In this document: piece after piece, positions 1,217-18,504 of the stretch | Position numbering within the stretch: the stretch's first letter is position 1 | Layout: every line of letters starts with the position of its first letter | Virus record (IMG/VR): IMGVR_UViG_3300027970_000119 | Span: 1-26,840 of that record | DNA from: a virus | DNA: 26,840 nt | Reading direction: 5' to 3' (one strand) | The notes under the pieces: generated by a model | What the model was told of the DNA's origin: nothing | Databases searched by the model: none | The model's input: only the letters and a program-made list of their open reading frames with translations | Program-made: the position numbers and the translations under genes

Positions 1217-3505
1217 GTGGACGCTAACTCTCGCCTAAAAGAAATTGTTGATTCCTATCTTGAGAAAGATGGCGGAGTAAACATTGACACAGGTATTGTT
1301 GCGTCCCACGTAGCCCAAATGAAACTCTTTGGTATCCGCCAAGGGGTAGAATTTTTTCCTTCTCAAGATAATTTTGGTAATCAACGCAAAGATTTTGTCG
1401 ACAGAGTACTTAAATACAACAGGATGGATACACGCCTAGATTCAATCTGGGAGTATTTCCTGTGTGATGGACAAGGTTTGTTTTATATCAGACCTACTGA
1501 GTCTAATTACCGACTTTACTTTTTCCGTCAACATGAATATCGTTCTTACTACGGCATTAATGGCGAGCTAGAAGAAGTAATTATTATCTATAGCTATAAA
1601 GTAAGACAGGGAACAGGCTTTAGCGATGGCGTTAATATCACCAATATCTCAGGTACTGCTATTACTGGCCCACAGGGGGCCAAACGATATATCAAATTAT
1701 CAATCAAAGACAAGGTAATTGAAGAAACACATAGTGAAGGAGAGATGTCCTTTGACTTACCTAGTTATAATGTCCCAGGGCGTACTCAAACATTCCGAAA
1801 CACACTCGGATTTATTCCTTGTGTAGAAATATTTAATAGTCCTAAGGGTTTTTCTAACGAAGGAGTAGGCGAATTTGACGCATTAGCCAATCATATTGTC
1901 ACGCATGACGAAATGGTACGCACCATGCGTAAGAATGTACAGTTCTTTGGTAATCCAACCCTTCTCTCATCAAGACCTAAGACAGATCTGATGGAATCTG
2001 GGTCAGATTCTACAGTTCAACGTCCTTCTATTGCAGCAAACTCCGGTTTTACTGGATTAGGAGCCTTAAGTCAGTCAAGATTTAAGTCTGATCCACTCTC
2101 TAGGGGTATGGATGGGCAAATTAGGGTGCCTAGGGTGATTGCCAACCTGGAACCTAACGACCGTGTTGGTTATATTGTCCCAGATGCTATCACTGGGGAC
2201 CAAAATAACTTTGCACGTCAGTATCGAGAAGAAATACGGACAGCTTTAGGGGGTGTAGACGACCTTTCTATCTCCGCTGGTATCACAGCAACAGAATATA
2301 AGTCATTATTCGGTCGTGTATCAGCAACATCTAAGAAAAAAGCAAATGCTATTTATACATATGGCATTTGTAGGTGTTTAGAGTTAATCATTTATCAAGA
2401 AGAGCGTTTATTCCGTGATACCTTAGCTGCTGCCACAGGAATTGAGAAGCCAGTTGAGCCAACAGAGAACGCAGCTAAAGAAGAAATTGATTTATACGAA
2501 GCAGGTTTAAAAGGATTTGAAGAAAAGATTAAACAAATAATGAAGGCATGTGTAGAGACTCAACATATACCTACAGGAGTCATCGGCCTAATACCAGACG
2601 GGGATCTGACCATGCTTTGGCGTTGGTTAGGTCCTGTTTACGAAGACTCTACACAAGATATTTTAAATAATTCTATCGTGGTACGTAACCTCCAAGAATT
2701 AGGTGTTGATAGTATTGAAGCACTGAAGTACCTCTTCCCGTCAAAAACGGATGAGGAGCGGGCCGCGATGTTATCGGGGTTTCCGTTCAGGATGGTCAAC
2801 GAATTGCAAGGTGCTTACTCAGCTTTTGCAAAATTAGTGGGGGGCATGATGCAGACCCCTCACCCGCAGTCACCAGATTTACCGATGGCTGCGGACCCAC
2901 GTCTTGACCTTACACCTTATCTGTATCGCACCTTAGAAGCATTACAAAAGGAGATGAGTTATGCAGGACGCTACCGTCCAATCGATCCCACAGATGAGCC
3001 AAGTACCAACAGCAGTAGCACCAAGCAGCTACGTGGCAGTACCAGCGCCTCAGGCTCCGGGACAGAGCTACCAGGGACCGATCAATTACCAAGTGGGTAC
3101 CAGTTACCCCCAAGCGGTGCCACAAGCACCTATCAGCTACCAATCAAGCCCTACTCAGTACGCCCCCCAATCCCAACCGGCGGCACCCCAGAGCAGCCCA
3201 TGGGAATCGGCGTTCAACAAGGTGGTGGGTCTGCTGAGCGCACCAGTCCAATCCCCGTTCCAGGGTCAACCCTCGGCTCCGACGCCAACATACGCCCCGG
3301 CCAATTACGGTCAGACGTACAACGGCCAACCTATGCCCAGCTTGGGGACGCAGACCTCGTATCCCAACCAGGAATACTCAGCCAACTATTCCCAAACCTC
3401 CTCCAGTCCCTCACTGGCGGACGTAGCGGATTACCTGGGCCTGAGCAACGAAAGCCGCCAGGTGATCGACGCGTTCGGGGTAGAAGCACCAGCCGTCCTA
3501 AATAA
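1217..3505 (+). CDS. Portal protein with overprinted C-terminal tail
   Basis: A 762-residue protein placed directly before scaffold and capsid, as expected for the portal, the dodecameric ring through which DNA enters the head. Residues 1-580 are a compact mixed alpha/beta protein with portal-like stretches (LDSIWEYFLCDGQGLFYIRP at 74-93, and a long helical region around 370-470). The start is a GTG at 1217; an in-frame TAA at 1211-1213 excludes extension. From about residue 582 the protein becomes a Pro/Ser/Thr/Gly-rich tail of about 180 residues encoded in the same DNA as the scaffold N-terminus, in another frame. The portal frame has no stop before 3503, so the tail must be translated unless the sequence is wrong. 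Without the tail, the length of about 580 residues is normal for podovirus-type portals. Assignment rests on context and overall character. Confidence 0.7.
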   Translation: MDANSRLKEIVDSYLEKDGGVNIDTGIVASHVAQMKLFGIRQGVEFFPSQDNFGNQRKDFVDRVLKYNRMDTRLDSIWEYFLCDGQGLFYIRPTESNYRLYFFRQHEYRSYYGINGELEEVIIIYSYKVRQGTGFSDGVNITNISGTAITGPQGAKRYIKLSIKDKVIEETHSEGEMSFDLPSYNVPGRTQTFRNTLGFIPCVEIFNSPKGFSNEGVGEFDALANHIVTHDEMVRTMRKNVQFFGNPTLLSSRPKTDLMESGSDSTVQRPSIAANSGFTGLGALSQSRFKSDPLSRGMDGQIRVPRVIANLEPNDRVGYIVPDAITGDQNNFARQYREEIRTALGGVDDLSISAGITATEYKSLFGRVSATSKKKANAIYTYGICRCLELIIYQEERLFRDTLAAATGIEKPVEPTENAAKEEIDLYEAGLKGFEEKIKQIMKACVETQHIPTGVIGLIPDGDLTMLWRWLGPVYEDSTQDILNNSIVVRNLQELGVDSIEALKYLFPSKTDEERAAMLSGFPFRMVNELQGAYSAFAKLVGGMMQTPHPQSPDLPMAADPRLDLTPYLYRTLEALQKEMSYAGRYRPIDPTDEPSTNSSSTKQLRGSTSASGSGTELPGTDQLPSGYQLPPSGATSTYQLPIKPYSVRPPIPTGGTPEQPMGIGVQQGGGSAERTSPIPVPGSTLGSDANIRPGQLRSDVQRPTYAQLGDADLVSQPGILSQLFPNLLQSLTGGRSGLPGPEQRKPPGDRRVRGRSTSRPK
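2948..2953 (+). promoter_or_regulatory. Internal Shine-Dalgarno for the scaffold gene
   Basis: AAGGAG at 2948-2953 lies 7 nt before the ATG at 2961, inside the portal coding sequence. It fixes the scaffold start and makes the 545-bp overlap with the portal frame a designed arrangement rather than an annotation artefact. Confidence 0.75.
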
Positions 3506-17618: not shown

Positions 17619-17930
17619 ATGAAACCTCTAATGGACCCCTCATGTGAGCCCAAAGAATTAGAACTCCCCCTAGAGTTTAAATTTGCTATGCGCAAAGCTG
17701 AGTTACGTGCATCAGAAATGACATGGGAGCAGCTTCACCAAGCTCTACTGAACCTATATCAACAACGCCTTATTGAGATCACAGCTATCAAAGACATAAT
17801 GGAAGAAGAGGGCGTCAATATTGAATTTGATATCCCCACAGAACTGGAACTAGAAGAACTAGCTTTTATGTGTGGTGATGACGAAGAAGATGACGAGGAA
17901 ATTGATGAGGACAATCTTCAGCCATTCTGA
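17619..17930 (+). CDS. NblA-like phycobilisome-degradation protein (putative)
   Basis: A 103-residue protein whose residues 15-65 resemble NblA, the small helical adaptor that brings phycobilisomes to the Clp protease: LEFKFAMRKAELRASEMTWE, then QLHQALLNLYQQRLIEITAI and KDIMEEEG. NblA proteins share 'F.lr..e.qv..ms.eql...l..ly.q.m....', with two helices. NblA itself is about 60 residues; here an N-terminal extension and a very acidic tail (GDDEEDDEEIDED) are added. Phage-borne NblA is known from freshwater cyanophages such as Ma-LMM01. The gene follows lysozyme by 25 nt and overlaps the convergent DUF3310 gene by 13 bp. NblA identity is pattern-based; an unrelated two-helix protein remains possible. 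Confidence 0.5.
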   Translation: MKPLMDPSCEPKELELPLEFKFAMRKAELRASEMTWEQLHQALLNLYQQRLIEITAIKDIMEEEGVNIEFDIPTELELEELAFMCGDDEEDDEEIDEDNLQPF

Positions 17931-18295
17931 AGACGGTCCAGATACCACGTGGCTTTCTTGAGGGATTCATCTTGTCCCTTCAGGCGTTCGCGCCATACAT
18001 ATTTAATTGCATTACCCTTGCAGTAACCACGAAATTCTTCAGGTGTTAATGTTGCTTTGATTGCTTCAATACACTCAACAGATCCCTGGTTGTAGTGAGG
18101 AGGGTTATTGATTGGATCTACTAGATGCCGCGACGCATCGCTGACAACTTCTTCTCCCGTGTTGGTATTGCACCTAGATCCAGTACTACTGCACCCTTCG
18201 GTAGAGGAGCAGCTCCCACTTCCATCCCCTCCTCCACACTTGGAATATATCCCGTCAATCCGGGACGAGTGTTTGACATTGGTGAAGTCGGACAT
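17918..18295 (-). CDS. DUF3310 protein with overprinted Cys/Ser/Gly-rich N-terminus
   Basis: A 125-residue protein. Residues 60-125 are a typical DUF3310 domain (NNPPHYNQGSVECIEAIKAT, LTPEEFRGYCKGNAIKYVWR, LKKATWYLDRL), widespread in phages, function unknown, often near nucleotide-metabolism genes. Residues 1-58 are low-complexity, with GGGDGSGSCSSTEGCSSTGS and four Cys. That part is encoded entirely within the 3' end of the upstream gene in another frame. The ATG at 18295 has AAGG about 7 nt upstream. No ATG, GTG or TTG occurs in frame between it and the domain, so the extension must be made if the domain is. Confidence 0.8.
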   Translation of the reverse strand: MSDFTNVKHSSRIDGIYSKCGGGDGSGSCSSTEGCSSTGSRCNTNTGEEVVSDASRHLVDPINNPPHYNQGSVECIEAIKATLTPEEFRGYCKGNAIKYVWRERLKGQDESLKKATWYLDRLQNG

Positions 18296-18504
18296 TGGTT
18301 ACCTTCTAGGGCAAGGTTTTGACGAGGCCGGTCTGCTTGGGTAACAGCCAGACCTCTATTATACTGATCATACAAGGGAACGTCATTCTCTTCGTTATCC
18401 AGTTGTTCACCAAAGTCACAGGCAGTTAGTGTCCGTCTGTTAACTTCGTCACCACTGTGCATGAAACCGTCAAGGAAATCGTGAGCACCTATTGCGTTAT
18501 GCAT
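18121..18504 (-). CDS. Unknown protein overlapping the DUF3310 gene
   Basis: A 127-residue protein without recognised domains. It starts MHNAIGAHDFLDGFMHSGDE, has an acidic middle (LDNEENDVPLYDQY) and a Pro/Gly-rich C-terminal part (NTRPGLTGYIPSVEEGMEVG) ending in a basic tail. Its last 58 codons overlap the DUF3310 N-terminus on the same strand. It is divergent from the + strand gene at 18537, with a 32-nt gap holding both control regions. Only a weak AAGAAG lies upstream of the ATG. It is more likely coding than a shadow because it is the longer and earlier frame, and it contains the Shine-Dalgarno for DUF3310. Confidence 0.55.
   Translation of the reverse strand: MHNAIGAHDFLDGFMHSGDEVNRRTLTACDFGEQLDNEENDVPLYDQYNRGLAVTQADRPRQNLALEGNQCPTSPMSNTRPGLTGYIPSVEEGMEVGAAPLPKGAVVLDLGAIPTREKKLSAMRRGI

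Follow-up and report, generated by a model that had tools for sequence, protein, structure and literature searches.

The stretch of viral DNA analysed here, referred to as the window, is 26,840 bases in length, and the closest named relative of the virus is the cyanophage S-EIV1. On the minus strand it carries two genes which share part of their DNA; the upstream gene is designated X, and the downstream gene, which encodes a DUF3310 protein, is designated D. The features of the locus are as follows.

17918–18295, minus strand: gene D, 125 amino acids, with a DUF3310 domain of the T7 gp1.7 type; ATG start at 18295
18121–18504, minus strand: gene X, 127 amino acids, upstream of D, an open reading frame conserved in S-EIV1-like phages
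18121–18295, minus strand: X/D overlap, 175 nt, with D in the -1 frame of X
18293–18295, minus strand: ATG start codon of D, the sole start in the open stretch, formed from the X codons CAA-TGT
18292–18294, minus strand: TGT (Cys) codon of X, imposed by the start codon of D
18302–18307, minus strand: Shine-Dalgarno-like AGAAGG, formed from conserved Leu-Glu-Gly codons of X (dG -4.7 kcal/mol against the anti-Shine-Dalgarno sequence)
18299–18301, minus strand: TAA stop in the D frame, two codons ahead of the start
17936–18112, minus strand: DUF3310 domain, residues 62–120 of D (Pfam match)

The domain of D matches the whole of the Pfam profile (positions 1–60 of 60; E value 5.6e-19; 68.4 bits against a curated cut-off of 24). 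The overlap DNA encodes residues 1–58 of D, which include four Cys, as well as X from roughly residue 70 to its C-terminus; the domain begins just past the stop codon of X, and the N-terminal part of D amounts to 61 residues, mostly overlapped with X. The first-pass annotation had described a DUF3310 frame devoid of a start near its domain, a start inside the 127-residue gene with AAGG upstream, and an extension coextensive with the overlap. These elements were confirmed: the ATG at 18295–18293 is the only in-frame ATG, GTG or TTG ahead of the domain, AGAAGG lies at 18307–18302, and both reading frames stay open across the overlap. Both genes, together with their overlap, are also conserved in relatives, in support of the claim that the extension is read from the DNA of X in another frame. 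On the other side of D, a 103-residue open reading frame (17619–17930, plus strand) resembles NblA, a phycobilisome degradation protein (E value 3.7e-5; 24.5 bits against a cut-off of 25), and converges on D such that the two ends overlap by 13 nt.

The product of X has no match in Pfam or PHROG, and its structure model was unusable (pTM 0.18). An antisense open reading frame of 65 amino acids (18125–18322, plus strand), likewise without a Pfam or PHROG family match, is also present in the overlap region. X might accordingly be thought untranslated, with the stretch belonging either to the DUF3310 frame or to the antisense frame. We find this scarcely credible: the DUF3310 frame runs into stops further upstream in X, and we consider X a real gene because it has a homologue annotated in S-EIV1 (49.6% identity), because its residues are strongly conserved over 48 sequences (24 invariant columns), and because it is retained in relatives where DUF3310 is not overlapped and D imposes nothing on it.

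The window sequence by itself is not significant. When the amino acids of X were kept and codons drawn by usage, the D frame was free of stops with P = 0.087 and contained an ATG with P = 0.55, and the open-frame test on the window alone was discarded as an argument. The significance comes from the relatives, which were assembled as two sets. The first was obtained by IMG/VR scans and comprises 76 distinct sequences in which X is complete enough to score, S-EIV1 and the window included; the second comprises 47 new distinct loci, classed only by the continuity of the frame through the stop of X. Over both sets, the -1 frame is open into DUF3310 in 103 of 123 distinct X genes, among them that of S-EIV1. 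The first-pass annotation had proposed comparing the N-termini of DUF3310 homologues in near relatives, and in this comparison the start inside X was kept, at one of three places, in 103/103 of the overlapped relatives (102 ATG, 1 GTG).

Among the 61 overlapped sequences of the first set (61/76), in which the -1 frame is open to the stop of X and on into DUF3310, the open stretch contains exactly one start codon in every case (60 ATG and 1 GTG). It is found at one of three columns of the X alignment, namely 60 (n = 32), 77 (n = 18, with the window) and 88 (n = 11, with S-EIV1). The start is built from X codons of the form NNA-TGY, hence every sequence carries a Cys in X at whichever site it uses (32/32, 18/18 and 11/11, respectively); the preceding codon ends in A in 60 of the 61, while the exception ends in G and so gives GTG. 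At these sites Cys occurs in no aligned sequence of the first set that does not use the site in question, separated ones included. The second set contains 42 overlapped and 5 separated loci, and all 42 of the former have an ATG at sites of the same kinds, along with the Cys. The sole locus with a second start is L259, an overlapped member of this set with an extra GTG at the last codon of X. Over the history of the group the start has occupied three positions in X, each one forcing a Cys on X and fixing the last base of the preceding codon.

In the mechanism which we propose, the ribosome would translate X, and a second initiation at the internal ATG, in the -1 frame of the same message, would yield the DUF3310 protein, in which the domain stands behind a flexible N-terminal extension. 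In the window's clade, this initiation could employ the Shine-Dalgarno-like AGAAGG or AGAGGG supplied by the conserved Glu-Gly codons of X, for which dG ranges from -4.7 to -9.8; the signal is weaker or variable elsewhere, and relatives which start at site 60 often have a weak one (median dG -3.0 vs a background of -1.7). A Shine-Dalgarno sequence was therefore rejected as a general rule, as it is clear in the window's clade only.

The -1 relationship of the two frames corresponds to a usual direction of programmed slippage, and D might instead be made as an X-DUF3310 fusion by programmed frameshifting, the internal ATG being incidental. Heptamers of the slippery type do occur at a few loci, e.g. 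GGGAAAC in 5/18 loci of the window's clade, but no single one is common to all members of a start-site group, and none occurs in the window. Moreover, slippage needs no ATG, yet a single start is kept at three positions which covary with the Cys of X, and the separated relatives are predicted to produce DUF3310 from a start of their own. The window, L004 and L016–L018 each have a stop two codons ahead of the ATG; in the window this TAA confines any frameshift from X to the DNA downstream of it. Because a shared slippery site is lacking and the conserved single start would be left unexplained, we regard frameshifting as very unlikely.

Whether the extension is selected as protein was approached through the synonymous sites of X. 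In the clade which starts at column 60 (A60), a sister clade of that of the window, the synonymous third-base diversity of X is 0.06 at columns 90, 92, 138 and 139, as compared with 0.55, 0.63, 0.52 and 0.71 at the same columns in the separated clade. Columns 90 and 92 encode the N and G of an NDG motif in D, and columns 138 and 139 encode a W and an F; the start Met of D is likewise among the synonymous sites of X that are frozen in this clade. Pooled over the whole overlap, the synonymous constraint in A60 is weak (P = 0.077). The pattern at the individual sites points to selection on the protein sequence of the extension in this sister clade, at its NDG and WF motifs. No synonymous slowing was observed in the window's clade, where the differences per 4-fold site are 0.61 in the overlap vs 0.45 upstream, and both the WF motif and the Cys module CPGGVCPVPW have been lost. 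Many relatives, L061 for example, have a conserved module of the form C[PK][GD]G[VF]CP[VM]P between the stop of X and the domain; it is possibly a metal site.

The Gly/Ser/Cys-rich composition noted in the first-pass annotation probably follows in large part from the codons of X, and we make no claim that the 58 residues of the window are selected as a sequence, as the constraint is absent from this clade. In the AlphaFold2 model, residues 1–60 of D have a pLDDT of about 40–50, while the helices of the domain (72–124) are mostly at about 88–94; a fold search with D returned nothing significant, and a sequence search for D returned no solved structure. The extension of the window is probably a disordered or flexible by-product which persists as the start lies upstream, no start being left closer to the domain.

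DUF3310 proteins elsewhere often start 5–8 residues ahead of the domain, and in those found without X the N-termini are unrelated. Together with the lack of synonymous constraint on the window's extension, this short form would suit a D whose translation begins close to the domain at a non-canonical codon, with the upstream open frame untranslated. This reading is also very unlikely, marginally more so than frameshifting, since the window has no ATG, GTG or TTG near the domain, the frame is open with a start in 103/103 overlapped relatives and broken when the genes are separated, and residues of the D frame within the overlap are frozen in the A60 clade. Initiation inside X remains the preferred reading. 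In S-EIV1 and in some relatives from the window's clade, a further ATG is located after the stop of X near the domain; thus, a short form of D could be made there.

The annotated DUF3310 gene of S-EIV1 (AHV82246) starts past the stop of X, with the N-terminus MPQPK. The D frame is, however, open upstream of this point from an ATG in X, which lies within the X codons CGA-TGC, and reads MRTNGLHTECGTR and WFAPVESECKDGF; the annotated start is preceded by WFAPVESECKDGFCP, a stretch that relatives also conserve. The overlapped version (L001:4213–4629) would have 138 amino acids, with DUF3310 at 68–131. The S-EIV1 annotation is thus probably too short, its start having been placed too far downstream. 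Elsewhere in the window, a portal/scaffold-like overlap of 545 nt (2961–3505, plus strand) is kept in S-EIV1 (KJ410740, 59287–60261) in both frames, with an identity between the two phages, within the overlap, of 131/178 residues for the second frame and 120/178 for the first; here too, the S-EIV1 annotation (AHV82225) begins the second gene only past the overlap. The first-pass annotation had paired this locus with X/D and proposed that extensions generally arise in this phage by reading through a neighbour. The companion overlap does hold, as it is conserved, but the general rule is an extrapolation from two loci and we do not adopt it.

In the remaining 20 of the 123 relatives, DUF3310 is apart from X and the open -1 frame has been lost. 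In the 15 separated loci of the first set, D has its own ATG and the -1 frame of X carries 4–7 stops in the last 66 codons, where 4.0–5.6 are expected. A tree was built from X without the start-site columns together with the domain, and rooted at the midpoint. The 15 sequences form one clade (support 95/95) inside the overlapped ones, consistent with a single change of state. A second event is represented by L170 and L174, which are close to S-EIV1 (83–84% identity in X) and are also separated; L170 keeps CGA-TGC, while L174 has CGC-TGC, a change that removes the ATG but spares the Cys. The overlap, as judged from the tree, is older than the window's clade and is not peculiar to this phage, contrary to what had been assumed, and separation is derived and arose at least twice. 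A start directly before the domain, which the first-pass annotation had held would speak against the overlap, does occur in relatives, yet it is derived, and the X genes concerned have lost the open -1 frame.

The N-termini of separated D proteins are in agreement with this order of events. Sequences like ATESRGSTSRNDWFAP are matched in L113 by the overlapped extension (SVESRGATSWNDWFDP), and none of 400 shuffles of the query scored as well. Similarity before the WF is driven in part by X, as synonymous resampling gave a mean best score of 33.9 and a maximum of 45 vs the observed 42, and we have therefore relied only on the match that includes WF.P. The end of X and the N-terminus of D share DNA when overlapped and both survive when apart, which makes overlap first the simpler order.

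Most of the separated loci share a further feature, an open reading frame of 162–217 amino acids on the opposite strand which ends exactly at the stop of X (11/15 in the first set and 5/5 in the second). It belongs to the endonuclease VII family phrog_1035 in all five cases tested (E values 7e-9 to 4e-13), while Pfam gave nothing significant.

At the stop of X, strand opposite to X: endonuclease VII-like open reading frame in L024, L170, L174, L224 (2848–3378, minus strand) and L269, from two lineages

An endonuclease VII-like gene would thus have been inserted at the stop of X in at least two lineages, after which D would have taken a new start and the -1 frame would have gained stops. The two genes were likely parted by a mobile endonuclease gene that inserted at a single site, and the four separated loci without the open reading frame may have lost it later. 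A literature search returned nothing to the point on endonuclease insertion into overlaps or on the separation of overlapped genes.

With respect to function, T7 gp1.7 carries DUF3310 (PF11753) as a C-terminal domain, and nucleotide kinase activity has been reported for it, as cited in PMC9339283 from Tran et al. 2008, 2012 and 2014. The D gene is adjacent to a dCTP deaminase gene, and D likely has a role in nucleotide metabolism, its enzymatic activity being predicted. D resembles gp1.7 in that the domain stands behind a long N-terminal part, but in D this part has 61 residues, mostly overlapped with X, and is not necessarily related to that of gp1.7.

Terminal overlaps and overprinting are established phenomena, as is the shift of a gene to an upstream start (PMC8227390, PMC2268670), and overlaps of more than 50 nt are found in 61% of dsDNA virus reference genomes (PMC7017920). 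As in other terminal overlaps, such as A/K of phiX174 (PMC8227390), the 3' end of the upstream gene and the 5' end of the downstream gene share DNA in different frames, and the extension is probably disordered, a property reviewed for overlapping proteins. X/D differs from overlaps of the A/K type in having a start at three positions, each with a Cys in X, and separated relatives that serve as internal controls. In genes whose start has come to lie inside a neighbour, an N-terminal extension results, as in D; in some lineages here, however, the reverse order is suggested, with overlap first and separation after insertion. Likewise, the opposite-strand gene in the relatives resembles phage endonuclease VII/HNH-like genes (phrog_1035) and sits at one exact place, flanked by two conserved genes, in separate lineages; any homing or cleavage activity is putative, and the gene is absent from the window itself.

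Taken as a whole, the evidence argues for a genuine terminal overlap conserved in S-EIV1-like cyanophages, with a second initiation inside X and later separations, a reading to which we assign a probability of roughly 90%. It is an unusually well-controlled example of an established kind of overlap and is well supported, with translation from the internal start as the predicted step. Long overlaps are usually argued from one or a few sequences, while more than 100 overlapped and 20 separated relatives allow a direct test of the cost. Here, the start codon of one gene dictates a residue in the product of the other, synonymous sites are frozen at positions which the second protein requires, and the freezing vanishes once the genes part. 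The results also suggest that mobile endonucleases can dissolve gene overlaps. A more complete account, for which we would offer about even odds, is that of an overlap whose start has moved, with a Cys printed into X each time, and which has been broken repeatedly by a site-specific endonuclease-like gene, the old frame then decaying. If this account is true, the separated D proteins would keep residues that were born inside a neighbouring gene, and these phages would constitute a natural experiment on the formation of overlaps, the constraints they bring and their dissolution.
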